Below are positions 1 to 40,211 of a stretch of 50,519 nucleotides of DNA, piece after piece. Both the position numbers and the translations under genes were made by a program. How positions within the stretch are numbered: the first letter of the stretch is position 1; each line of letters begins with the position of its first letter. This stretch comes from Candidatus Thorarchaeota archaeon (GTDB lineage Archaea; Asgardarchaeota; Thorarchaeia; Thorarchaeales; Thorarchaeaceae): positions 1 through 50,519 of the forward strand of contig JAEORG010000271.1 in the NCBI GenBank assembly GCA_016841005.1, written 5' to 3'. Under the pieces are notes generated by a model. It was given only the letters and a program-made list of their open reading frames with translations. It was not told where the DNA came from and made no database searches.

Positions 1-215
1 CTCCCTTGCTCAGGGTCATTAGCAAACATTCTATCAGGGTGTGAACCTTCTAAAATTGCTAATCGTTTTGCAAGTGTTGGCTTTGAGGTCTTTGTCCTCT
101 TCGCAAGCCAGTCCAATGTTGCTAGCGGACTTTCCTGAATTGCAATTAGCAATTTCAGATAGTCTCGAGTTATTCCTCTGAATTTATCCAACTCCTTTTG
201 CTGTTCACGATTCAA
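1..215 (-). CDS. Winged-helix DNA-binding protein, N-terminal part (runs off the window)
   Basis: The reverse strand is open from a TTG codon at 215 to the window edge and encodes about 71 residues. They form a small helical domain containing LLIAIQESPLATLDWLAKRT followed by SKPTLAKRLAILE, which has the helix-turn-recognition-helix look of a MarR/ArsR-type winged helix. A stop lies just upstream in frame, so TTG is the only usable common start. It lies 5 bases after the stop of the secreted-protein gene at 221-754, so the two are probably co-transcribed. There is no clear ribosome site, and coupling to the upstream gene is likely. The rest of the protein, and so any sensor domain, is outside the window. 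The HTH call is by eye. Confidence 0.6.
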   Translation of the reverse strand, partial: MNREQQKELDKFRGITRDYLKLLIAIQESPLATLDWLAKRTKTSKPTLAKRLAILEGSHPDRMFANDPEQG

Positions 216-220
216 TTGGT

Positions 221-754
221 TTACAACTGTTTGATGGTCATATCAATCTCTGGCTCGTCATTCGGAATTCCTGGTGGATCAAATATGATTGTGTCTTCAT
301 CATATCCAATGACGACGTTAATACATTCCGCTTTAACTGTAAAAACATACCATCCTGAGTCCGTTGCATGGTTAATCCATCCCAGAGTTATCCCAACACC
401 ATTCGGTGTCGTGATTTGAAAATTGAATGTGTTCTTTTCTCCTGTTGGCATTATCAACTCCGTTTCAATTTTGATTACATAGTTAACTCCACTATCATCA
501 TTAATGATGTAGTCATCACCATCAGTAATTAGCACTCTAAAACTCGTGACAACATCATCTTCTAGCCCGTCATCATCATAATCTGTATATTCAGCCTGAT
601 CGATTATTACATCAATCTGTACATTTGCGTAGGCCAATAGGTTTGGCTCGGTAGGAGAGACAGACTGCGTATGTAAGGTGGTAAGATTAGAGCTCAAAGT
701 CAGTAATGACAAGAAGAAGGTAGTTAGTAAAAATAACTTGACACCCCTGTTCAT
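221..754 (-). CDS. Small secreted protein of unknown function
   Basis: 177 residues starting at ATG 754. A GTG at 766 gives four more residues, but ATG 754 has GGTGAT four bases upstream. Residues 1-25 form a signal peptide (basic MNRGVK, then a Leu/Thr/Phe-rich core). The mature part looks like one or two beta-sandwich domains and contains an acidic stretch (YTDYDDDGLEDD) resembling a thrombospondin-type-3 or EF-hand-like calcium loop. No membrane anchor is present, so it is exported free or processed. No family is recognised. It sits directly upstream of a winged-helix gene on the same strand. Confidence 0.6.
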   Translation of the reverse strand: MNRGVKLFLLTTFFLSLLTLSSNLTTLHTQSVSPTEPNLLAYANVQIDVIIDQAEYTDYDDDGLEDDVVTSFRVLITDGDDYIINDDSGVNYVIKIETELIMPTGEKNTFNFQITTPNGVGITLGWINHATDSGWYVFTVKAECINVVIGYDEDTIIFDPPGIPNDEPEIDMTIKQL

Positions 755-944
755 CCCTATCACCACTGAAGTTTTGCATCAATTTATATTATAGGTCTTA
801 TGGTAAAATTAGTAAAATAATAAACACTTCTATAACTTTCTTCCCATTTCCTAGTTTCGATATCTTCATAGGAATCGTATACATGAACATCTTAACTTCT
901 TTAGAATATTGAATTATATCAAACTAAAGGTGAGGATTATTGAT

Positions 945-25981: not shown

Positions 25982-28900
25982 ATGTACAAACAATTGTTCA
26001 TGCTTCTTCTCGTTTTGACGACAATTCAAATTCCTGTTGCTGCGAGTGAAACATCATCATATAGAACTAATCTGGCTTCACCTACGATAGAGCCTATTAT
26101 TGACTCAATGCTTAGTATGGAAATATCAAACCACATAGAATCCAAGATTCTCTCGAATGTCAAAGAAAATAACGATGTAAAAGCGATTCTCCGATTCCAA
26201 GAAGAACTTACAACCTCTGAGATTGAATACGCTGAATCTTTGGGAATTCAATTCATCAGAAGAAGCGGAGAAGTTGTGCATGTAGGTACAGTTTATTCAG
26301 CTACGGTGAGTAGCAATTTGTCTCTACAGCGTATTGTACCTTTGGGTTTAATTCAGGCAACTTCAGGTTCAAAGCAATTTTATCCAGCAATACCGTCCTC
26401 AGTTCCTGCAATAGGTGCTCCTGAGGTATGGTCAAACTTAGAAAAAGATGGCGAGGCAATTGATGGGACTGGAACAACAGTAGCTGTTATTGATACTGGT
26501 GCAGCTTGGTTACACCCTTCGTTGTGGCGAGCAAGTACGGATAGTCTTTCGGTAATATCCAGCGGACCTGATTATTATGTTGATGTAGATGGTGATTCAA
26601 TTGCTGATGCAGATGAAGGACCAATCAACACAGTCCAAGGCCAGACAGGACCGGTTATTGATTATTCAGAGGATTACATGTTCATCGATGTTAATGATAA
26701 TGGACTATTCGATTATAGTGCTGGTGATAGATGGCTTGGGGGAATTGATTCAAATCACGATGGTGATATCTCTCTAGATAGTGAAAATGTTGTTGTTCTA
26801 GGGGAGTCAAAAGTTGCCATATTTTATGACCAATACTCTGGAAATGTATATGTCAGAAGTGTAAATCTCACGTCTGCATTAAATGTTGGAGATACAAATG
26901 GACATGGTACTCATGTATCTTCAATAATAGCTGGTGGTCAGCCAGGTATGACCAACTATGTGGGGGTTGCTCCTGGAGCAGATTTGATAATAATTCGAAG
27001 TACATTAGATTCTGCTGCAGTACTAGATGGAATTTCTTTTGCTGTACAGAATGATGCAGATGTTATCAACATGTCATTCTCGAGTTATCTCGGATTCCTA
27101 GATGGTACAGATCTTGAAGACATTGCTATCAGCGAAGCAATGACTGAGCATGGAGTTATATCAACACTTGCGGCGGGCAATCTAGGTGGTCGCCCCAAAC
27201 ATGCAAGATTCCAATCCACCAATAGTCAAAATGGTAGTGCTACTCTCTCTGTTCTTAATCCACCAGATTATTCTTTCCTCAACCTACTATGGCGAAGTTC
27301 AGATGATGACGAACATGTTATTCTATCGCCTCCAGGTGGAGATGATATCGATATTGGATCTTTCAGTTCATTAGAAGGAACTCCGCAGATACTTGAAACC
27401 GATAATATTAGTGCATATATTTTTCCAGATACAAGTGAACGGGGATTTAATCGTTTAATTATCCAAATTTCTGAGGAAACTCATTATTGGGATAATGGAA
27501 TTTGGGGAATAACAGTGACTAATCCAAACGGCGAAGATGTTTGGATAGATGGTTATGCTTGGGACAATACATGGACTGGCACATCTATGCGTTTTCAAAC
27601 AGGTGTCGACTATACTCGAACAATAAGCTCACCAGGAACCTCTGATTTGGGAGTTACAGTGACAGCCTACAATGAGGTCACAACGGACCTAAGTGCCTCT
27701 TCAAGTGTCGGACCACGAGTGGATGGTGTAGTTAAACCAAATGTTGCCGCACCTGGAGATGCGATTCGTGCAGCATACAATAGTGTCACTTCTCTTTGGG
27801 TTACAAGATCTGGGACAAGCATGGCTGCACCTCACGCTGCAGGCGTTGTTGCCTTAATCAGACAAGCATCTGGAGTTTCTAATGGTTGGAGTACATTATC
27901 TGCACTCTATCAAGGTGCAGGTGGGCAAAATAATCACTTTAGCCCAGCATCTACTAGTTGGGGTTTTGGTCTTTGTAACCCACAATGGTCTGTACAACAT
28001 CTTCTAGACCCTGTGGCTGATTCGATTTACTGGGGCGGTATTTCATCAATACTTGATGATCCCACCAACTCTTCAATTGATTCTGGTCTAGATATAGTCA
28101 ATGTCAAGGCTTACCTTACAAATAGCAATACTTGGATTCGAATAGGGATGCAGGGTGAACCAGACTTTTCTGGAGAGAATGAGTTGATTCTGGATTGGGA
28201 TCGAGACTCCTCACTTGCAACAGGTGAAATAGGCATTGATATGAGAATAATACTTACCTCCGGTGTCGCAAATATTTACGAGTGGTCAGGGAGTACGTTC
28301 TCTCTCTCTGGACAAGCCTCTTGGTCAAATGACACAACAGCAGTATATCTCTCTGTCAGTAGAGACCCTCAGGTAACTCATGGAAGATTCTTTCTAGTTA
28401 CTCAGAATGCAACTTACACTGATTTAGACGTCACTACTACGGTAACACTGATGAATCAATGGAGTCCGATTGTTCATTCTCTAGAGATAGAAAATCTTGA
28501 GAGTAACTTTACAATAAGTGGTACAGTGTTTGACAAAGACTCAGATACAAGTCAATTGGAGATAAATCTGAAAATTGTTGATGGTGGCTTAGATATACTT
28601 CAACAAAATGACCAAGATGGTCAGAATAGCTTTTCAATTGAGTACGATACTGAAGACTTTGAAACAAATGATATCGTATCACTAATTCTTACTGTGTCTG
28701 ATGGTGACATTGAGTTGAAACTTCCACCTATCCTGCTATCTGGAGGAAATGCATTGGAGTTGAACTTTGTAGAAGCAGAGTTGGATCAAACAACGGTACG
28801 AGTCGGACCTTTTATTTCAGAAAGAATTACTGGGCGTCTAGTACTTGAAGGTCACCTCTTGGCTGAAGAAGTCAGATTATCATTGATACCACCCACTGGG

Positions 28901-29161
28901 CTTCAGTATAATCTAACTCTTGCTGGAGTTTCTGGTGTCTACGAATTCGATGTTTCTCCCTCTAACATTGCAGTAAATACCTACGACGTCTATGCGGTTG
29001 CTATCCCTATTGCTGGAGATGAAGTAATACAGTATCTTGGTGAATTGGTGATAGTTCAAGATTATTTCATTGTAATCCTTATAGGGGGAGTAGGAGTGGG
29101 TATCTTGGTAGTAATCTACATCGTGCTCAAGTTAAGACTTAGACATAGTGTGGAGGGATAG
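25982..29161 (+). CDS. Membrane-anchored subtilisin-like protease (S8)
   Basis: 1059 residues. It has a signal peptide (MYKQLFMLLLVLTTIQIPVAAS), a propeptide to about 135, and a catalytic domain with Asp near 171 (AVIDTGAAWLHPSLW), His near 308 (TNGHGTHVSS), Asn in AAGNLGGRPKHARF and Ser near 612 (SGTSMAAPHAAG). The Asp-His insert carries two acidic DxDxD-type loops (DVDGDSIADADEG and DVNDNGLFDYS) suggestive of Ca2+. Beta-sandwich domains fill 690-1010, then one TM helix (IVILIGGVGVGILVVIYIVL) and a short basic tail. It shares the insert and the GNLGGxxKHAxF motif with the 10865 protease, so these two form a subfamily. The gene is followed after 3 bases by the flavoprotein gene. Confidence 0.93.
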   Translation: MYKQLFMLLLVLTTIQIPVAASETSSYRTNLASPTIEPIIDSMLSMEISNHIESKILSNVKENNDVKAILRFQEELTTSEIEYAESLGIQFIRRSGEVVHVGTVYSATVSSNLSLQRIVPLGLIQATSGSKQFYPAIPSSVPAIGAPEVWSNLEKDGEAIDGTGTTVAVIDTGAAWLHPSLWRASTDSLSVISSGPDYYVDVDGDSIADADEGPINTVQGQTGPVIDYSEDYMFIDVNDNGLFDYSAGDRWLGGIDSNHDGDISLDSENVVVLGESKVAIFYDQYSGNVYVRSVNLTSALNVGDTNGHGTHVSSIIAGGQPGMTNYVGVAPGADLIIIRSTLDSAAVLDGISFAVQNDADVINMSFSSYLGFLDGTDLEDIAISEAMTEHGVISTLAAGNLGGRPKHARFQSTNSQNGSATLSVLNPPDYSFLNLLWRSSDDDEHVILSPPGGDDIDIGSFSSLEGTPQILETDNISAYIFPDTSERGFNRLIIQISEETHYWDNGIWGITVTNPNGEDVWIDGYAWDNTWTGTSMRFQTGVDYTRTISSPGTSDLGVTVTAYNEVTTDLSASSSVGPRVDGVVKPNVAAPGDAIRAAYNSVTSLWVTRSGTSMAAPHAAGVVALIRQASGVSNGWSTLSALYQGAGGQNNHFSPASTSWGFGLCNPQWSVQHLLDPVADSIYWGGISSILDDPTNSSIDSGLDIVNVKAYLTNSNTWIRIGMQGEPDFSGENELILDWDRDSSLATGEIGIDMRIILTSGVANIYEWSGSTFSLSGQASWSNDTTAVYLSVSRDPQVTHGRFFLVTQNATYTDLDVTTTVTLMNQWSPIVHSLEIENLESNFTISGTVFDKDSDTSQLEINLKIVDGGLDILQQNDQDGQNSFSIEYDTEDFETNDIVSLILTVSDGDIELKLPPILLSGGNALELNFVEAELDQTTVRVGPFISERITGRLVLEGHLLAEEVRLSLIPPTGLQYNLTLAGVSGVYEFDVSPSNIAVNTYDVYAVAIPIAGDEVIQYLGELVIVQDYFIVILIGGVGVGILVVIYIVLKLRLRHSVEG

Positions 29162-29164
29162 ACA

Positions 29165-30448
29165 TTGAAGCTTGTGGTGATTGGATATGGCCCTGGAGGG
29201 GCTGCGGCCGCAACTGCAGCGAGAATTTTTGATCCAAAATCTGAGATAGTAATCTACACGGGCGAAACCTTAGATGCACATCGAAAACCTGGAGCGTCAT
29301 ATGCTCTTGAGCATCCTGACACTAAGGACTTAGTCATACAGGATTGGTCTATCAAAGCTCTTTCAAATCGACGTATCCGAGTTGTTTCAGGTGTCACAAT
29401 CGATGGAGTTGACACCTCAAAACGTACTATTTCAGGAACTGACTCGAAAGGTAAGAATTTCGAGGATTCGTATGATAAGATTGTGGTCGCAACTGGAGGA
29501 TTACCGTCAGTTCCTTCTATTCCTGGAGTTGACCTCCAAGGAGTATATACAATTCAAGATATGGTAGATACCAGTAAGATTGGTAGTAGCCTTTCTGGTA
29601 TGAATCGTATACTTATTGTTGGAGCAGGGTTTAGTGGACTAGAAGTCGCAGAACGTTTTCTCTCATTAGGAAAACAGGTGCATCTCATTGTGCGCTCTCG
29701 ACTTATGCGACGTCAACTTGAGCAACCAATGAGTAATGAACTGCTATCTAGAATTCAAAAAAGACTTGTAGTACATCAAGGTGTATCTCCGTCATCTATC
29801 GAAGGTGAAGATTTTGTTACTGGAATCAATCTTGATGGCGAAATGCTAGAGGGTGATGCAGTCTTATTTATGACCGGGGTGCGACCAAACACGAAATTGG
29901 CTATTCAAATGGGACTTGAGCTTGGAAGTTTAGGTGGAATCAAGGTAAACGAATCAATGGAGACATCCAAACAGGGAGTTTACGCAGTTGGAGATTGTGT
30001 GGAAATGTCAGACTCTCTTTCTGGACAACCTATCCTAATGCCTATTGGAAGTGTTGCTGCTCGTGCTGGGCGACAGGCTGGGGTTGCAGCTGTTGGTGGA
30101 CGAAAAATCTATGGTGACACTTCTTTGCTCTTTCAATACGATCGCCTTTTTGAAACTGATATTGTATGTGTAGGAAATTCTTCTACACGAGCTAGTGAGG
30201 TAGGTATTAAGGCAAACATACATTATCTAGAAGATCCCGCGGAATTTTCAAAGGTCGCAGTAGTCACAAATGATCAAGACCAAGTCATAGGTGGTCAAGT
30301 TATAGCAGCTCGTCTCGGAGCACGGATTGGATATCAGATTCTTGAACGAGTGGAATCTAAAGCCATCTTTAGAGATCGACCACTACTTGATTCCACACAC
30401 AAACGGATGAAGGACCTTATTGAACAGACGTTTGGTCCTATTCGATAG
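29165..30448 (+). CDS. FAD/NAD(P)-dependent oxidoreductase, CoA-disulfide reductase/NADH oxidase-like
   Basis: 427 residues, cytoplasmic. It has an FAD-binding GYGPGGAAAA at residues 7-16, a second Rossmann motif VGAGFSGLEVAERF for NAD(P)H, and YAVGDCVEM for the flavin. The fold fits the NADH oxidase/CoA-disulfide reductase/NirB-like group. The active-site cysteine of that group (usual SCGLPY) is absent: the equivalent region reads KPGASYALEHP. It therefore cannot use the Cys-based disulfide or peroxide chemistry and may be a ferredoxin, rubredoxin or other reductase. The start is TTG 29165 with GGAGGG (29154-29159), 3 bases after the subtilisin stop. Its 3' end overlaps the convergent S8 gene by 11 bases. 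Confidence 0.88.
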   Translation: MKLVVIGYGPGGAAAATAARIFDPKSEIVIYTGETLDAHRKPGASYALEHPDTKDLVIQDWSIKALSNRRIRVVSGVTIDGVDTSKRTISGTDSKGKNFEDSYDKIVVATGGLPSVPSIPGVDLQGVYTIQDMVDTSKIGSSLSGMNRILIVGAGFSGLEVAERFLSLGKQVHLIVRSRLMRRQLEQPMSNELLSRIQKRLVVHQGVSPSSIEGEDFVTGINLDGEMLEGDAVLFMTGVRPNTKLAIQMGLELGSLGGIKVNESMETSKQGVYAVGDCVEMSDSLSGQPILMPIGSVAARAGRQAGVAAVGGRKIYGDTSLLFQYDRLFETDIVCVGNSSTRASEVGIKANIHYLEDPAEFSKVAVVTNDQDQVIGGQVIAARLGARIGYQILERVESKAIFRDRPLLDSTHKRMKDLIEQTFGPIR

Positions 30449-33365
30449 ATGGTGGAGAATGATCCTTTGGCTCCTCTTCCCATTCAGGAGACCACTCTCT
30501 TTCAATTCTAGGACGACTCGGTTTCTTACGTCCGAATTTCAGTATTCCCACATACAATAGAGCGACACCGACAATGGCAAGGAGACTATACATAACACCT
30601 AGTAAAAGGTCATCATCAACTGCAGGAACCGGAACAAGAAAGGTCTTGATATAATTTCTAACATGACCTTCTGAATCTGAGGCAAGTATTGTTAATTCAT
30701 AGAAGCCCGCATTTTCTAATTCAAACTCAAGGAAGTATTTGTACCCTAACGATTCTATGACTGTTGTAGGAATCTCAGTACCTGCAGAATTCTTGAGAGT
30801 GATATCGACCTGATCAAGATTCTCATCAAAAATGTATGCAGTGAAGTTTGCTAGTTCTCCAATCTCGCCATATTCAAATTTGACATCAAAGATTCTTGGT
30901 TCTATTGGAAATATTGCCTCTGCGACATTCTTGAGTAATCTCAGATTATCTGCATTCAACCTTTCAGCATCGTATATCGTAGTATCAAAGAGTAATGAGC
31001 CATCAGAGAGTGCTATGACCTTACCTTCTCCCACATTTACAACTGCTAACAATGCATGTGTTTTCAATGCATCTGTCCAAATGAGCCCTGTTGCTCCTGC
31101 AACTGAAGGGTCGACGGAGAGAGTGCCTCCATTCAGAATGAAGATATTCCTGACTCCATCCGTAAGTTGATTTGTTTCAACAGATCCTCCATTGTCTGCC
31201 CCATAGACATCACCACTATCGTTGCCAATCCAATTCCTCTCACACTGAATGCCATATGGTTCTAAGATTTGATTGTAAGATTCAAAGGCAAAAGCGGGAA
31301 TATTATTTGTAACGTCAAATCCTTCTGATAGAATTAAGAGGACACCACCTTCTTGAACATAATCGTGGATGATATTAATCTCTGTTTCCGAATATTGTGT
31401 TTCTGTGTCCATAATCATTAGCACTTCAGATGTAGCAAGAGCTGCAGTAGTTATTTGAGGGAATGTCAAAGCATTCGCCCAATTTGTTGGATATGCAGTT
31501 ACTATCATACCCTGTTCACGTAAATAATCTCCAAAATATCTGAAATAATCTGGATCATCAGGATCCTCAGCAGAGTGATGTGCCATATCAACTAAAACTC
31601 GACCACCATAATCAGTGATGAGAAGATTAAGTTCCATTGAAGCAATTACTTCTCCATTCTTGATCATGTCAACTGACCCTGTGTATCTTCCTAAAGCAGA
31701 AAGTGGAAGGTCTTCAGGAACATCAAGTCCAATACTGAAGTAATTCTGTCCTGTAGGAACATATGGGTTCTCTCCCAATGTTATGAAGTCTGATGCGTTA
31801 CCAGTTGCTTCTAGTATTACAGATCCTCTATTTACTGTTGAAATTACTGTGACATTCTGAGGAGATCTACTATCTCCTATAATGAAAACTTGATCTGACC
31901 CTGGAAGTGTAGGGAATCTGAGTGGCGACATTATTGTAATAACACCAGATGTGTTGGTGTATAACTCTGAGGCTTTTGTCACATTAGCTAGTCCGAATCC
32001 CTGCTCCATTGGGTCGACTCCTAAATCTGTGGCACCTGCCATAAGGAACGCCTTAATCTCTACGGGAGTCATTCCCGGATGTTTGTCTAGAAGAAGTGCA
32101 GCTAATCCAGCAATCTGTGGAGCTGCCGCAGAAGTTCCTGACCAAATTGTATATGGTGCAGTGAATTGACTTTCATTGTATGGTTGGTACTCTGTCGGAT
32201 CAGAATTTTCCAACCGCCCTGATAAGACAAGATACCCTGGTGCAAGAATATCTGGTTTAGTAAAAACACCGTGTGGTTCTGTCTGTTCCCTTACTACTGG
32301 ACCACGACTGCTGAAAGATACAATGTCAATTGACCCAATTGATGCTCCAACTGTTATCGCGTTGTTATCAATACCTGGTGATGTTATTGATTCAGTTGCT
32401 GGTCCTGAATTACCTGCAGCTATCACTACAATAATTCCGCCTTGAATGGCCGCATTTATTTCTTGAACAGTTGGTTGGGGATATAGCGGATTATCCGGCC
32501 ATACACCTCCTAGACTAAGCGTAATAATATCAACGCCGCTTGTTCTCGCGTACTCAATGCCTTGTGCAATAATTGAGTCATCTGCAGCACCTTCAGAATC
32601 TAAAGCTTTTATGACAAGAAGCTTTGATCCTGGTGCAAGTCCTGTATACTCTCCCGAAGTTCCAACACCAGTTCCTGCGACTAACCATGAAACAGCTGTT
32701 CCATGCCCATTATCATCATAGGCGTCAATTCCATCTTGGGGATCCATATCATTTTGTCCACCTATGAGGTCATAGAAACCGTATATCCTGCCTTCCAAAT
32801 CTGGATGAGTTCCATTTGCACCACTATCAATTACTGCTACAGTAACTCCAGTGCCATTGTAGCCCTCTGCATAAATCGAATCAGCTCCGAGGTATTTGTC
32901 AGAATGAACATAACTATCTCCTAGGCCAGTTTGGTCGGCTTCATTCTCAATGGGCGATGAATCAATCACTCTCTGTTGATCGTATCCGAGGTATGAAACC
33001 CCATCTAGTTTTGTAAGCATTCTAATTGCATCTGACGTTGCATATGCGGATGCTGTTGGAATCATGTCAAAGATGTGTCTGACAGATAAGTCTGGAATGT
33101 CAGCTTTATTCAAAGTTTCCTGAATAAGTTGAGAATCAAAATAATCTTGAAATTGAATGACTATAGGATGAATAATATCAGATGATTCATCCATCTTCTG
33201 AGTGAGCTCAGGAGATATAATTTCACCAATGGACGCTACTTCAGAAGTATTTGTAGGAAATTGAATTTCAATTATTGGTAGAATTAGAAGTCCAATAACA
33301 ATTCCTAGAAGAATGATGTTGCTGTTTTTCCGTGCGAGTCGCGACATTGTAGACTGCCCATCCAA
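30438..33365 (-). CDS. Membrane-anchored subtilisin (S8) with GATase-like domain, site-1-protease-like architecture
   Basis: 975 residues. N-terminal signal anchor (NIILLGIVIGLLILPIIEI), propeptide to about 140, catalytic domain with D180 (AVIDSGANGTHPDL), H221 (DDNGHGTAVS), N319 (AAGNSG) and S412 (SGTSAAAPQIAG). A beta domain covers 480-585. Residues 587-820 (GGRVLVDMAHHSAEDPDD, then LMIMDTETQYSETEINI and EGGVLLILSEG) look like a GATase1/DUF4350-like Rossmann domain. An Ig-like domain, one TM helix and a 35-residue acidic, Pro-rich cytoplasmic tail follow. The order catalytic-beta-GATase-TM-short tail is that recalled for eukaryotic MBTPS1. The start is ATG 33365; a second in-frame ATG is six codons in. 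A TATA-like TTAACTTA lies about 25 bases upstream. Confidence 0.92.
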   Translation of the reverse strand: MDGQSTMSRLARKNSNIILLGIVIGLLILPIIEIQFPTNTSEVASIGEIISPELTQKMDESSDIIHPIVIQFQDYFDSQLIQETLNKADIPDLSVRHIFDMIPTASAYATSDAIRMLTKLDGVSYLGYDQQRVIDSSPIENEADQTGLGDSYVHSDKYLGADSIYAEGYNGTGVTVAVIDSGANGTHPDLEGRIYGFYDLIGGQNDMDPQDGIDAYDDNGHGTAVSWLVAGTGVGTSGEYTGLAPGSKLLVIKALDSEGAADDSIIAQGIEYARTSGVDIITLSLGGVWPDNPLYPQPTVQEINAAIQGGIIVVIAAGNSGPATESITSPGIDNNAITVGASIGSIDIVSFSSRGPVVREQTEPHGVFTKPDILAPGYLVLSGRLENSDPTEYQPYNESQFTAPYTIWSGTSAAAPQIAGLAALLLDKHPGMTPVEIKAFLMAGATDLGVDPMEQGFGLANVTKASELYTNTSGVITIMSPLRFPTLPGSDQVFIIGDSRSPQNVTVISTVNRGSVILEATGNASDFITLGENPYVPTGQNYFSIGLDVPEDLPLSALGRYTGSVDMIKNGEVIASMELNLLITDYGGRVLVDMAHHSAEDPDDPDYFRYFGDYLREQGMIVTAYPTNWANALTFPQITTAALATSEVLMIMDTETQYSETEINIIHDYVQEGGVLLILSEGFDVTNNIPAFAFESYNQILEPYGIQCERNWIGNDSGDVYGADNGGSVETNQLTDGVRNIFILNGGTLSVDPSVAGATGLIWTDALKTHALLAVVNVGEGKVIALSDGSLLFDTTIYDAERLNADNLRLLKNVAEAIFPIEPRIFDVKFEYGEIGELANFTAYIFDENLDQVDITLKNSAGTEIPTTVIESLGYKYFLEFELENAGFYELTILASDSEGHVRNYIKTFLVPVPAVDDDLLLGVMYSLLAIVGVALLYVGILKFGRKKPSRPRIEREWSPEWEEEPKDHSPPSIE

Positions 33366-33529: not shown

Positions 33530-33817
33530 ATGGGATTAACACACGAATATGAGAGACGGATACAGATTAAGCACTTTTTTGATGATCGCGACACTGGTGC
33601 GAAGAGAAGAACATGGCTTGAAGTGCAGATGGCACTTCCTCAAAAAACAACTGAAGGTTGGGTGAATGATGGTAAAGTACGTCTATCATTAGGGGACGAA
33701 CGTGACATTAAAGGAGCTTTTCTTTTGAATATAGAAGAAGTCTGTCGTCTTTACAAATCACTTGAGCTAATAATCAATGAACACGAGTCGTTGAAATCAC
33801 AACTATGGCGTGAATAG
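33530..33817 (+). CDS. Small protein of unknown function
   Basis: 95 residues, cytoplasmic, starting at ATG 33530 with GGGGTG about eight bases upstream. The N-terminal two thirds look like beta strands with turns (RRTWLEVQMALPQ, GKVRLSLGDERD), and the C-terminus is a long amphipathic helix (IEEVCRLYKSLELIINEHES). A beta-sheet plus helix of this size could be a nucleic-acid-binding or dimerising fold, but I cannot name a family. A nine-T terminator follows 20 bases after the stop, which supports a real monocistronic gene. Confidence 0.6.
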   Translation: MGLTHEYERRIQIKHFFDDRDTGAKRRTWLEVQMALPQKTTEGWVNDGKVRLSLGDERDIKGAFLLNIEEVCRLYKSLELIINEHESLKSQLWRE

Positions 33818-35432: not shown

Positions 35433-38400
35433 ATGAGCTTTAAGAACAAAGCAGCAGTTCTGCTTTTTGTTGCCGTATTATCACTATCAGTGTTTATGGC
35501 TCCGATCGGACCAACTAACCGAGCGGAAAGGGCAAGCTCACCTGAACTCTCTCCAGCAACTCAAGACGAAATCAATAACTGGTATAATATGATGGCGCAG
35601 CCTGGTTATTCTCCAGAGATTGATTCGGTCTTGGCTGAGTGGGTAGATTCAGGAAAAGTTAGCGACCAAATGGTCACAACGGAGAGAGGTGTTAGCGCAC
35701 TTGTCGTCACCGCTCCGAGTGTCGATATGAATGCAATCCGAGAGGTTGTATCAATTGACTATTTTGTGAACTTGGGCTACTTCTCGACCTTAAAGGTCAC
35801 ATTCAGTAGTCCTGCGGACGTTAACAGACTTGCAAAAATTGATGGTGTAGGCATAATTAATGCAGACTTGTGGCGAACTCCAATCGGGGATGACCTCGTG
35901 AAGGAGATCGATGTTGCACCAACAATACCCAGTGAGGGTGTTGACATGGACTTTATCTATGATGTTGTTGGTGGTGACTCCGGTGAAGCAAACAACTATG
36001 ACGGTACTGGTATTACAGTCGGTCATGTTGATACTGGAGCTGACTTCGGTAATCCAGCGCTACAAGGTGCATACAACACTGGTTCCTATGATGGAACTGG
36101 TGAAGGTGTAACACCAATGTGGTACTACGCCAACTCAAGTTATGTATCAAACATTACAGATTGGGTTGACGTACAAGGCAATCTTCTAACATATGTTGAC
36201 AGTGGAAATGTCTACCTCAACGTAAGTGGATGGGACCCCCTCCTTAACAATGCAGGTGGTGCCCGATACCTCTACGGTGACGGTGGCCCAGGCGTATCAT
36301 ACGTAAACCGTGTCGGATTCATCTGGCTATACAGCGTAGCATGGATCGAAGGATATGGGTTTGCACCTATGAACGCTACATGGCTAGAATCAACAAAGAA
36401 AGATTGGAAACTACCAGCCACAACAAACTTAGAATCTGGTACTGACTACCAAGTCAACTGGATTTACCAGCAGCATAGTAGTCCATACGCAAAATTATTT
36501 GCACCAGCACTTGTGTACAATGGTACTGACAAGGACTTCCACCTAGTTGTCAACTGGGAGGATGCTGATGCATGGAACTACATGTGGACAAACGCATTCT
36601 ACTGGAACTCAATTAACGTGTCACACTCATCAGCTGGTGACCTTGCTGATATCTACAGCAGATTCGACTGGGACTTCACTGATGATTTCGGAGCCGGTGA
36701 AATCTTCGACATGTCTTCTGCAGCAAATGCTATTGTAGCACACAACTACGGTGGTGGCCCTCTAGATGACTTCAGCCTCGGCTCACTATCCTGGGCATAC
36801 GATGCCTTTGGTTTCACTGAGTGGGGCGATTTCGACTGGGATCCAATGTTCGGAGGTTTCAGTGACCATGGTGACTTCAACCTATACTGGGATGATGGCA
36901 CTCACGGTACTGCCACCGCAATTCACGTTGTTGGTAGAGATGTTTCAGGTAATTGGTACGACGAAGATAACATGCACAAGGTCAATATGACTGGTATCGC
37001 ACCAGGTGCTGATATGATTTCTACTCGCGCTCTATCTGGAGCATCAGATTACTTCAGCTACCTTTGGGTGTGCGGATTTGACATGGTGAATGAGACTTCT
37101 GGTGAGTTTAACTACACTGGAAATCACATGGCAGATGTTGTGACCAACTCTTGGGGTTGGATTACAGAACCTGCTAGTCAGATGGACTACCTGTCCTTCA
37201 CTTGGGAGATTCTATCAACCCCAGGTTTACTTGATCCAGACAACATGGGTGGATACCCAGGCGTGCTACACGTCTTCTCAGCTGGAAACGAAGGTGCAGG
37301 TTACATGACTATTGGTCCACCCGGTTCAGCAACTGGTGTCTTAACTGTAGGTGCTTCAACTGTAAGTAACTGGTTAACATACCTCTATGGTCCAACTCAA
37401 CCATACGAAGGCATTGCAAGTTTCAGCAGCCGCGGTCCAGGTTTCACTGGCTACCCAGCTCCTGATATTCTAGCTCCTGGTCTTGCAGGGTACACTGGTG
37501 TCCCGTGGTACGCATACTACTATGGCGACTCTTGGGGTATTGATTATAATACAACCCTCTTCAGCGGTACAAGCCAGGCTGCACCTGTTGCAACAGGTGT
37601 TGTTGCTCTCGTTATGGATGCATTGGACTTTGATTCACACACTGATAGCGGATTCGTCGTTAAGGCAATCGTTCAATCTACTGCTAAGGATCTTGGTTAT
37701 GACCCAGCTATCCAAGGCTTTGGTCGAATCGATGCTGGAGCAGCTTGTGACTTCGTTGTGAACGGAGGCTTAGTTGGTGCTACGACGGACTCAATGTACA
37801 ACTTCGCACAATTCATTGGCGATGCATGGGCATATTGGGGAATTCTCCCTGGATCATATATCCCACGTGATATCAACAGTTCTGTGGTTGCATTCCCAGA
37901 TTCAAACTACGATGGTAACATATTCTTCGGTCAGATGTTCCCAGGTGACAGTGCTACTGTGACCTATAGTATGTACACGACCGCAGCTAGTATGTTTGAC
38001 ACACCAGACAGTGCATACTCGTATGGTGGTTCAACAGCGTACATGTACAACATGACTGACATGTTTACATTCGACAACGTCACCTTCTCCTACAATGACA
38101 CAAACATGGCAGGAGAGCAGATGTATGGATGGTATGATTTCGATGACCAGCTTGGCACCACGGATTACACCACTGTAATGAATTCTGACATGATTCAAAT
38201 CATCGTATCATTCGATGCAACAGAAGTTGCAGGCGATGAGCCATGGATGTTCCTCTACGACTGGAACGATGTTTCAGGCGATGGAATGCCGAACCTCTAC
38301 AACATATCTGCATCACCCCCTGACACAACCCACGATGAATTACATCGTCTGACAAGTGCTAGCAATGCAGCTAATGTCAACCTCATGCAATGGGTTCCAG

Positions 38401-40211
38401 AAACACTTACTGGTACATTGACACTCGTTATCCACGATCCTGCTCTTGATGTTGCCACCGGTTGGTGGAACGCTACTGCAAATCCTGGACACGACTTCAC
38501 TGTAACTGTCCTATGTTACACTGAGGATGTTCCTGACATGGATGTTGTTTCATTTGCTGATGAGGGAACCGCGACTGGTTCTGTAAACGTCACCCTTGAT
38601 GTCGATGCCACTACAGATCCTGGTATCTACACTGGTTACATCGCCTTCACAGGCGGTCTAGCTGTACCATACTCATACGTAGTTGTTGCTAACCTCACCG
38701 TTGATGGTGGAGCTGTCAACACACTGTTCAGTGACTATGGCGCTGACATGACTCCCTACGACAATGTCCTGTACGGATGTATGGAGGAAGACCCAGATGC
38801 TTGGGACTTCAGAAGCTATGTATTGTACAACCAGTATGATACTGCAGAATACCTCGGTATTCGTGCTGAATTTGCAGATGCAGGTAGTGATCTCTACATT
38901 GCTGTCTATGACAGTGAGAATGGATTACTTGCCTCGGGTTCTGCTTTGACGGACACAAGCACCGCGGTAATCGCTGAGATTGATGGTGCAGGGTACTACT
39001 ACTTGTTAGTACACCCAATTGCCCAAAACGGTACTATCGCACAGCCAGTCGAGTTCACGCTCGAGGCCATGCTGTACGATGCTCTAACCGATCAACCAGC
39101 AGTATGGAGCTACACTTCAGATGACAGAACCGGTGTCACACCTGTGGCAGACGGTAACTCCCTCTGGGGTGACCACGTTGTACTCAACGCTAGCTACCCA
39201 GCATTCAACCTACCAAACATGCCCGAGTATGAGATTACCTCAGCTACACTCGGATTCCTCTCTGGTGTATACCATCAGAACTCTGGACCTAACGTAATTC
39301 CATCTGCATCATACGATCCATTCTCTGGACCGCTTGATTTGACCCAATTCGCTTGGGACTACGTAGCTGGAATTGGTGAAGGTGATACCGTAGATATCGA
39401 AGTAGACTTTACTAATGGCGATTGTGACATTATGGTCTTCTGGGCTGACACTGACAATACCACCTGGGCTTACAGCAACAACCTTGTTGAAGACTCGATG
39501 GCTACAGGAGCACATCCTGAAGTTGGTTCATTCACAGCAGACCGCGATGGAAGACTCGCAGTTGGTATCTTCGACTACGACCTTGGCGCAGGTACTTGGA
39601 CAGTTACTGTCGACACCCGTGTTGGTGTATACGAAACCGCAACTGGCCCAGAGGTGACATATGACACCTACGACCTAGGCAGAAATGGTACCTTCCAAGT
39701 TCAGCTAACAGCTACAACCGCAACCAACCTTGACTTCGAGGTTAACTTCGCAGCATTGACCTTCGGCAACTACTTCAAGCCATACGTCAACTCCGTTGAT
39801 GTCACTGGTTCTGGAGCAGTGAAGACAATCACATGGACCATGTCAGACCTGAATGCAGGTGACACCCACGAGTACGAAGTGCTTCTATCAGCTGACGACG
39901 GTGAGACATTCCAGCTCATCGCTACAGGCTTGACCGCACTGACATACGCTTGGGACAGCACTGGCTTCACCATTGACAACTATGTGGTTAAGATTCGTGT
40001 CGAGGACAGCTATGGCCTAACTGATGAAATGGATTCAACTTCATTCTCAGCAGGTACTGTAGAACCTCCGTCAACATCTACTACACCTCCAACTTCAACC
40101 ACTCCAACAACGACAATTCCTGGAATTGATCCTCTGTGGATTGGTTTGATTGGTGGTATTGGTGTCGGTTTAGTCGTTGTCTTGATCCTATTCCTAGTTA
40201 GGAAAAGGTAG
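35433..40211 (+). CDS. Giant membrane-anchored subtilisin-like protease (S8), probably very highly expressed
   Basis: 1592 residues. It has a signal peptide (KAAVLLFVAVLSLSVFMAP) and a propeptide to about 170. The catalytic Asp is D200 (GHVDTGADFGNP), His is near 491 (DDGTHGTAT) after an insert of about 290 residues rich in Trp, Tyr and Asp, Asn is in SAGNEGAG near 619, and Ser is near 714 (SGTSQAAPVATG). Some 700 residues of beta-sandwich domains follow, then an Fn3/Ig-like domain, a Thr/Pro stalk (TSTTPPTSTTPTTT), one TM helix and a KR tail. Codons for Phe, Tyr, Asn and Asp favour the C-ending form, unlike the neighbouring genes. With the strong TATA box, GTGAGGAG ribosome site and hairpin terminator, this suggests an abundant surface protein. 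It could serve as both surface coat and protease (inference). Confidence 0.93.
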   Translation: MSFKNKAAVLLFVAVLSLSVFMAPIGPTNRAERASSPELSPATQDEINNWYNMMAQPGYSPEIDSVLAEWVDSGKVSDQMVTTERGVSALVVTAPSVDMNAIREVVSIDYFVNLGYFSTLKVTFSSPADVNRLAKIDGVGIINADLWRTPIGDDLVKEIDVAPTIPSEGVDMDFIYDVVGGDSGEANNYDGTGITVGHVDTGADFGNPALQGAYNTGSYDGTGEGVTPMWYYANSSYVSNITDWVDVQGNLLTYVDSGNVYLNVSGWDPLLNNAGGARYLYGDGGPGVSYVNRVGFIWLYSVAWIEGYGFAPMNATWLESTKKDWKLPATTNLESGTDYQVNWIYQQHSSPYAKLFAPALVYNGTDKDFHLVVNWEDADAWNYMWTNAFYWNSINVSHSSAGDLADIYSRFDWDFTDDFGAGEIFDMSSAANAIVAHNYGGGPLDDFSLGSLSWAYDAFGFTEWGDFDWDPMFGGFSDHGDFNLYWDDGTHGTATAIHVVGRDVSGNWYDEDNMHKVNMTGIAPGADMISTRALSGASDYFSYLWVCGFDMVNETSGEFNYTGNHMADVVTNSWGWITEPASQMDYLSFTWEILSTPGLLDPDNMGGYPGVLHVFSAGNEGAGYMTIGPPGSATGVLTVGASTVSNWLTYLYGPTQPYEGIASFSSRGPGFTGYPAPDILAPGLAGYTGVPWYAYYYGDSWGIDYNTTLFSGTSQAAPVATGVVALVMDALDFDSHTDSGFVVKAIVQSTAKDLGYDPAIQGFGRIDAGAACDFVVNGGLVGATTDSMYNFAQFIGDAWAYWGILPGSYIPRDINSSVVAFPDSNYDGNIFFGQMFPGDSATVTYSMYTTAASMFDTPDSAYSYGGSTAYMYNMTDMFTFDNVTFSYNDTNMAGEQMYGWYDFDDQLGTTDYTTVMNSDMIQIIVSFDATEVAGDEPWMFLYDWNDVSGDGMPNLYNISASPPDTTHDELHRLTSASNAANVNLMQWVPETLTGTLTLVIHDPALDVATGWWNATANPGHDFTVTVLCYTEDVPDMDVVSFADEGTATGSVNVTLDVDATTDPGIYTGYIAFTGGLAVPYSYVVVANLTVDGGAVNTLFSDYGADMTPYDNVLYGCMEEDPDAWDFRSYVLYNQYDTAEYLGIRAEFADAGSDLYIAVYDSENGLLASGSALTDTSTAVIAEIDGAGYYYLLVHPIAQNGTIAQPVEFTLEAMLYDALTDQPAVWSYTSDDRTGVTPVADGNSLWGDHVVLNASYPAFNLPNMPEYEITSATLGFLSGVYHQNSGPNVIPSASYDPFSGPLDLTQFAWDYVAGIGEGDTVDIEVDFTNGDCDIMVFWADTDNTTWAYSNNLVEDSMATGAHPEVGSFTADRDGRLAVGIFDYDLGAGTWTVTVDTRVGVYETATGPEVTYDTYDLGRNGTFQVQLTATTATNLDFEVNFAALTFGNYFKPYVNSVDVTGSGAVKTITWTMSDLNAGDTHEYEVLLSADDGETFQLIATGLTALTYAWDSTGFTIDNYVVKIRVEDSYGLTDEMDSTSFSAGTVEPPSTSTTPPTSTTPTTTIPGIDPLWIGLIGGIGVGLVVVLILFLVRKR

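Follow-up and report, generated by a model that had tools for sequence, protein, structure and literature searches.

Site-1 protease (S1P, also known as SKI-1 or MBTPS1) initiates cholesterol and stress signalling; it is activated by SPRING, cleaves at RxxL-type sites and has SREBP and ATF6 as substrates. Eukaryotes, in which this enzyme is found, are thought to have arisen from Asgard archaea. No title or abstract opening listed in searches of an open-licence library, subscription papers and preprints aside, described an archaeal or Asgard S1P-like protease. Here, we describe a predicted membrane-anchored subtilase with the S1P layout, encoded at 30438-33365 on the minus strand of a 50,519-nucleotide stretch of DNA from a Candidatus Thorarchaeota archaeon (GenBank assembly GCA_016841005.1, contig JAEORG010000271.1, positions 1-50,519), the whole of which is called the window below. 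It had been singled out in an earlier note, made from the sequence alone, as an archaeal subtilisin with the domain order of S1P. We consider it rather likely that Asgard archaea have a family of membrane-anchored subtilases built on the S1P layout, that this protease is its Thorarchaeota branch, and that it is a self-maturing enzyme of the cell surface. It is a remote relative of S1P by its S8 and GIFT domains, not a demonstrated orthologue.

Results

The open reading frame (ORF) at 30438-33365 is a genuine gene with a full S8 catalytic set. Its 975 codons begin with TTG, the seventh being ATG, and Pfam places the S8 domain at residues 171-458 (1.6e-54). As in S1P, this domain holds D, H, the oxyanion N and S, here D180, H221, N319 and S412, which were invariant across 50 aligned relatives. 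Past the S8 domain, ABC_transp_aux, DUF4350 and IFT52_GIFT matched residues ~611-795 weakly, below cut-off, in the Pfam scan. An AlphaFold model built with 104 sequences (mean pLDDT 85.1, pTM 0.78) gave, in order, a helix (11-31), a beta-alpha propeptide (~52-133), the S8 domain (~155-472), a beta domain (~477-586), a Rossmann-like alpha/beta domain (~588-817), an Ig-like beta domain (~824-911), a second helix (918-944) and a low-confidence tail. All of the parts that had been read from the letters in the earlier note, from signal anchor to tail, were found in the model close to where they had been placed. The single predicted C-terminal transmembrane helix (918-944) and the short 31-residue tail, which would be cytoplasmic in the presumed orientation, are also as in S1P. 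The features of the gene are as follows.

30438..33365, minus strand: whole gene of the S8 / beta / GIFT-like membrane-anchored protease, 975 amino acids (ORF, Pfam, model)
33273..33335, minus strand: hydrophobic N-terminal helix, residues 11-31, predicted signal peptide or signal anchor (model)
32961..33218, minus strand: propeptide, ~residues 50-135, beta-alpha fold (model; hhalign to Asgard S8-GIFT propeptides)
31950..32903, minus strand: S8 catalytic domain, ~residues 155-472, with D180, H221, N319 and S412 (Pfam, alignment, model)
31608..31937, minus strand: beta domain where S1P has its P-like domain, ~residues 477-586 (model, fold alignment)
30906..31607, minus strand: GIFT/GATase-like Rossmann domain, residues 587-820 (Pfam, model, Foldseek, VIA, hhalign)
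30633..30896, minus strand: additional beta (Ig-like) domain, residues 824-911 (model)
30534..30614, minus strand: predicted transmembrane helix, residues 918-944 (model)
30441..30533, minus strand: short 31-residue tail, residues 945-975, ending EWSPEWEEEPKDHSPPSIE, cytoplasmic if the presumed topology holds (sequence, model)
30441..30455, minus strand: conserved C-terminal PPSIE (aligned relatives)

Foldseek returned human S1P as the top PDB match of the model (9csd_A, 1.3e-38; 8uw8_A, 1.3e-36). Among the 50 rows listed by VIA, only these two S1P chains were aligned past residue 585, 8uw8_A matching the model over 152..821 (595 residues, root-mean-square deviation 8.7). Because Foldseek puts S1P first and only S1P chains align through the GIFT domain, the domain order and fold proposed in the earlier note were borne out by model, Foldseek and VIA alike, and residues 587-820 did not turn out to have an unrelated fold, being aligned with the S1P chains. 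The beta domain of the model occupies the place of MBTPS1_3rd.

Residues 470-905 had 141 protein matches at E <= 1e-5 (7999 candidates scored), and among the best 120 of these every one bearing an organism name was from Asgard archaea; the nearest in the protein collection was P0002, Candidatus Thorarchaeota by name (94% over these residues). In 50 family members, DUF4350 matched 50, ABC_transp_aux 47 and IFT52_GIFT 27 at E <= 0.01, and the family thus has a Rossmann-like domain with the GIFT/DUF4350 profile, the window protein itself lying below the curated cut-offs. The S1P-derived model PF23090 (MBTPS1_4th) matched 19 of the 50 at E <= 0.01 (best 1e-5); the window protein was without a listed match at E <= 0.1, and its GIFT domain agrees with that of S1P in fold and position.

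The S1P layout is not unique to the window gene, as it occurs in a diverse Asgard family inside and outside the Thorarchaeota class. At E <= 1e-3, the MBTPS1_4th model matched 23 of 227 Asgard genomes (the phylum of the Thorarchaeota genome G001), 11 of them over the cut-off. It matched 0 of 14 controls, 0 of 246 genomes in the phylum of a Methanothrix metagenome-assembled genome (MAG) and 0 of 249 in the phylum of a Bacillota MAG, and for the latter two, as for one further 0/5 search, a lack of family match is not proof of absence. An S8 domain lies in the same frame at 22 of the 23 Asgard loci, the exception, L103, being a 379-residue frame near a contig end. DUF4350 matches in five Asgard genomes had an S8 domain in frame in 5 cases out of 15 and none in the other 10; the Fisher comparison of 22/23 with 5/15 is exploratory, the sets coming from different models and overlapping genomes. 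In the class of G001, seven of 47 genomes matched MBTPS1_4th and six of these are within the 23, so the other 17 lie outside the Thorarchaeota class.

Downstream of the S8 domain, an Asgard GIFT profile matched 7 Asgard S8 frames out of 26 at E < 1e-5, several of these frames being members of its training set. None of 52 frames from the phylum of G006, of which 35 offered room for the domain and some came from loci fetched twice, matched at that level, L171 reaching 6e-4; nor did any of 70 non-Asgard genome-contig frames, of which only 3 offered room. With the beta-GIFT part of either the window protein or P0242, a compact Asgard protein, as query, 72,556 plasmid records gave nothing at E <= 0.01; S1P matched 419 of these records and whole P0242 611, none covering 80% of the query. 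The single-protein scan of genome contigs was uninformative.

Two observations were made alongside. L171, from another archaeal phylum, is an S8 protein with beta-helix-like repeats and then a weak GIFT-like stretch at 736-816 (E 6e-4). An Asgard S8-GIFT group of 1257-1308 amino acids (L112:1777-5703, L113:5285-9058, L120:4516-8331) ends in a C-terminal zinc ribbon, which is perhaps in the cytoplasmic tail.

Other Asgard S8-GIFT groups are nearer to S1P than the window's family as judged from alignments, for example the compact group of 807 residues, for which a search with P0242 at E <= 1e-3 gave a total of 8 proteins, of which one is named Promethearchaeota. P0242 and mammalian S1P (P0132) form a single BLASTP alignment of 658 columns (25% identity, 135 bits, 1e-36), which spans from before the S8 domain into GIFT, where RVLWDQSHD faces RVLWDQYHN. 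The window protein is in turn collinear with the P0242 locus by tblastn (30% over 741 columns, 9.8e-57). A model of P0249 from the same group (pLDDT 76.9) had S1P as its first Foldseek match (2.8e-40, TM-score 0.57/0.61, 723 columns). Among the Asgard S8-GIFT groups the propeptides are homologous (hhalign 97.5) and so are the beta domains (97.9).

For the comparison of GIFT domains, the S1P set was the best 120 of 1363 matches, its named rows being animals. A profile of 16 non-Thorarchaeota Asgard GIFT domains scored a median of 56.0 bits on the 120 S1P sequences (16.6 to 64.4), a match that is partly selected because the profile loci were chosen by the S1P model (15 of the 16 rows directly, the last being a second ORF of such a locus). 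A profile of DUF4350-match GIFT domains scored a median of 6.2 bits; it left out L212, L217 and L222 (contig edges or second match) and L206, L208, L214 and L216 (S8-fused), and kept L221, which lies on one contig with the S8 of L134 in a frame of equal length and was labelled fused in the tree and in the count. With hhalign, the non-Thorarchaeota Asgard profile reached 98.9 against S1P GIFT (190 columns). In the opposite direction, the S1P GIFT profile had medians of 16.0 bits on 19 Asgard S8-fused domains, 11.6 on 8 Thorarchaeota domains (window 8.4) and 1.7 on 15 without S8; the Thorarchaeota rows, which were not chosen by the S1P model, outscored the S8-free domains (p 3e-5, relatedness ignored).

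The S8 domain as a marker of Asgard archaea as the nearest relatives of S1P was considered and rejected: the S1P S8 profile was best on L171, L170 and L196 (140-141 bits), from two genomes of another archaeal phylum, which outscore all Asgard rows (121.6 at most, and 111 for the best PF23090 Asgard locus).

S8 trees were built from 100 of 169 eligible rows, then from 69 rows (59 of those and 10 plasmid rows) and then from 64 after removal of five long rows. In the 69-row tree, S1P grouped with the GIFT-bearing Asgard rows L114_8713 and L147 (support 95/93), three long branches together; in the 64-row tree, from which these two rows had been removed, it grouped with further GIFT-bearing Asgard rows, first L116 (88/30) and then L110, L114_4783, L117 and L122 (85/66). 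Approximately unbiased (AU) tests rejected none of the constraints tried: S1P with the Thorarchaeota family (p 0.079), with all GIFT-bearing S8 rows including Thorarchaeota (p 0.0997), with the non-Thorarchaeota Asgard GIFT-bearing rows (p 0.43) or with six plasmid S8 rows from five Streptomyces and one Pseudoalteromonas (p 0.16). In the GIFT tree S1P sits on a long branch and its placement was not resolved. In the combined S8-beta-GIFT tree the window's family joins the 807-residue group (87/87), and S1P attaches by L112 (81/85) on a branch of length 3. As far as these alignments reach, the trees do not settle the sister group of S1P.

The neighbourhood of the gene includes the following features.

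30438..30448, no strand: 11-bp tail-to-tail overlap with the convergent flavoprotein gene (8/8 loci examined)
33530..33817, plus strand: ORF of 95 amino acids, divergent from the protease (locus comparison)
29165..30448, plus strand: convergent FAD/NAD disulfide reductase, CoA-disulfide reductase-like below the NCBI cut-off (family match)
25982..29161, plus strand: neighbouring S8 protease, 1059 amino acids, a conserved neighbour (Pfam, locus comparison)
35433..40211, plus strand: neighbouring S8 protease, 1592 amino acids, with a conserved or a divergent S8 gene in its place at most loci reaching there (Pfam, locus comparison)

A block of genes recurs in the Thorarchaeota-type loci L001-L012, namely an S8 protease (1592 amino acids in the window), a coiled-coil membrane protein, the 95-residue ORF, the protease, the flavoprotein disulfide reductase and another S8 protease (1059 amino acids). 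The 95-residue ORF adjoins the protease in 12 of 12 loci at 57-71% identity, which is above the protease's own conservation, and has no Pfam match. The remaining block genes are present wherever the contig reaches, except for the first S8 gene, missing in L006 and divergent (28-33%) in L004, L005, L009, L011 and L012. L010 (genome G004) is labelled Lokiarchaeota and falls in the class of the Thorarchaeota genome G001, so the label may be wrong.

The 3' ends of the protease gene and the reductase gene share 11 base pairs, in the window as in all eight other loci examined, each stop codon lying inside the coding end of the other gene. The tail ends in PPxI and one further residue in 95 of 104 relatives, with an EW pattern upstream. 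The isoleucine and the last residue fall inside the overlap and the prolines outside it. The whole PPSIE was therefore rejected as a protein motif: the overlap takes in its final two residues and some of the one before them, and only the prolines and the EW pattern are free of it. The part of the window from 10844 to 40211, less than 30 kb long, contains four genes for S8 subtilases as well as a PmbA/TldD pair.

Discussion

If the protease is the surface enzyme that we propose, it would be exported as an inactive zymogen, would remove its own propeptide by self-cleavage and would be held at the outer surface of the cell membrane, its tail reaching into the cytoplasm. In S1P, GIFT acts on the oxyanion-hole residue N338 (PMC11231238), and by analogy the GIFT domain here may be non-enzymatic, packing on the protease and steadying its active-site loops. 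Substrates could be envelope proteins or single-pass membrane proteins, cut near the surface. The PPxIE end of the tail probably serves to bind a partner in the cytosol, for which the conserved 95-residue neighbour is a possible candidate. The cut could be followed by cleavage by site-2 protease (S2P), as a signalling step, or else could be plain surface processing; signalling together with S2P would be no more than a possibility.

A subtilase of the usual extracellular kind, which serves peptide feeding or the turnover of the surface layer and has accessory domains but no regulatory role, is a serious possibility that we place somewhat short of even. It would fit the company of the gene, which has other S8 genes nearby (10844, 25982, 35433), the TldD/PmbA pair and M29 and M20 peptidases, and also the finding that a single Asgard genome can encode many S8 proteins (G001 had 10 matches, spread over 8 frames). 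The membrane anchor and the C-terminus conserved in 95 of 104 relatives suggest a partner inside the cell, which speaks against it, but they could serve localisation alone.

The following results weigh against the S1P-layout reading. The window protein aligns with S1P by sequence only in the S8 domain (96 bits, 4e-24), and its nearest PDB chain by sequence is Tk-SP (4.5e-50); S1P was not among the best 60 rows in one PDB sequence search and came about 45th in another, by S8 only. Tk-SP also closely trails S1P in Foldseek (6.3e-35), has the higher VIA Z (44-46, against 40.8 for S1P) and came first in VIA for the P0249 model, with S1P not among the 50 rows. The Thorarchaeota GIFT profile scored a median of 18.1 bits on S1P (119 rows) and 84.8 in hhalign (70 columns), less than the 94.9 of the DUF4350-match profile (180 columns). 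As the latter reaches S1P, the GIFT homology is superfamily-wide, with the DUF4350-type set a clear but remoter relative. The pro-domain MBTP1_N (PF23001) had no match in the window protein or in 50 members (hhalign 1.0), and MBTPS1_3rd (PF23094) had none among the 50 members (hhalign 0.2-0.3); the latter gave weak matches in 2 of 227 Asgard genomes, none over the cut-off, and the control Bacillus subtilis matches too. By these tests the protease is not a member of the S1P family, as neither of these two defining domains could be recognised in its sequence. The earlier note's claim of kinship with S1P therefore holds for the layout and for remote homology of S8 and GIFT, and does not extend to an alignment beyond S8, to a strong GIFT match or to S1P as the nearest relative by sequence.

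Two lines of support were rejected. Both of the short motifs quoted in the earlier note as similarities to S1P are present in the window sequence, and their S1P counterparts lie in a human S1P segment that agrees residue for residue with PDB chain 8uwc_A. The first type (FDxxH) is also found in the protease-free GIFT/DUF4350 domains L207, L211, L213 and L215, and the second (an acidic residue, then S/T..EI) has a similar look in protease-free domains. The motifs are thus generic to GIFT/DUF4350 domains, weigh little alone and are no proof of kinship with S1P. Similarly, 19 of 20 Asgard genomes carry an S2P-type M50 protease, as do 14 of 14 controls, so its presence was rejected as support for signalling.

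The S8 trees, too, speak against the S1P-layout reading. In them the window's family groups with enzymes of Bacillota and of archaea, apart from S1P; it falls in a 20-row set (98/90) made up of 10 Bacillota-type rows (AprX-like by their source labels), 6 Thorarchaeota and 4 other archaeal rows. This grouping is biased, because the bacterial rows were fetched by similarity to the window's family. In the 64-row tree, the family lies in a 34-row set without S1P (98/95), parted also from the other Asgard S8-GIFT rows. Such a tree would be expected if the fusion of S8 with GIFT had happened independently in Asgard archaea, perhaps on two occasions, and in the lineage of S1P, the shared order being convergent. 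The GIFT tree without resolution, the propeptide and beta domain that cannot be aligned with S1P, and the GIFT-like stretch after the beta-helix of L171 (E 6e-4), an S8 protein of another archaeal phylum, are all compatible with independent fusion. We nevertheless hold it to be unlikely. P0242 and S1P are collinear through S8, beta and part of GIFT, and the window protein is linked to the P0242 locus by tblastn; propeptide and beta domain are homologous among the Asgard groups (97.5, 97.9); MBTPS1_4th picks out almost solely S8-fused GIFT domains in Asgard genomes (22/23); and one clade of S1P and GIFT-bearing S8 rows was not rejected (AU p 0.0997). The collinear alignment favours a single origin of the layout with S1P, which the trees do not prove.

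Acquisition of the architecture by Asgard archaea from eukaryotes is highly improbable: nothing positive speaks for it, though the trees leave room for it. Asgard S8-GIFT proteins show much greater diversity than the set of S1P rows (whose named members are all animals, which limits the comparison), they occur in the Thorarchaeota class (6 of 23 genomes) as well as beyond it (17), and the gene order of the window is conserved among archaea.

A single origin would allow a wider proposal, which we put forward tentatively and regard as conceivable but rather doubtful at present. Eukaryotic S1P may descend from an Asgard membrane protease with S8, P-like and GIFT domains, so that the first cut of regulated intramembrane proteolysis would have been inherited from the archaeal host and would predate the endomembrane system. 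The Thorarchaeota gene would then be one surviving branch, and modern Asgard enzymes would process or signal at the cell surface.

The layout of S1P thus gains a prokaryotic counterpart in Asgard archaea, and the diverse family with this layout matters more than the single gene of the window. An archaeal origin of S1P becomes testable, with a concrete route to the source of the first step of SREBP/ATF6 signalling, and the Asgard enzymes could be used as simple systems for probing GIFT function.

Compared with known systems, Tk-SP from Thermococcus kodakaraensis (PDB 3AFG) shares the propeptide and S8 domain and is the best PDB sequence match; it differs in that the sequence match ends at residue 466 and the fold match at 538, its 539-residue chain being without GIFT. 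Residues 587-820 belong to the GIFT / DUF4350 / ABC_transp_aux / IFT52 Rossmann-like domains, which are mostly protease-free (10 of 15 in five Asgard genomes), whereas that of the window is fused to S8. With S1P/SKI-1/MBTPS1 (PDB 8UW8, 9CSD), the window protein shares the S8 domain and its catalytic set, a beta sandwich, GIFT, a transmembrane helix and a short tail, as well as the top Foldseek match. It differs from S1P in having no recognisable MBTP1_N or MBTPS1_3rd, a weak GIFT sequence match, an extra Ig-like domain before the transmembrane helix and no evidence of SPRING, Golgi or SREBP-like partners. The compact P0242 and P0249 are without the Ig-like domain and the PPxIE end of the window protein; they are collinear with both it and S1P, have a GIFT domain followed by a transmembrane helix and a short tail, and are the closer of the two Asgard forms to S1P by sequence.

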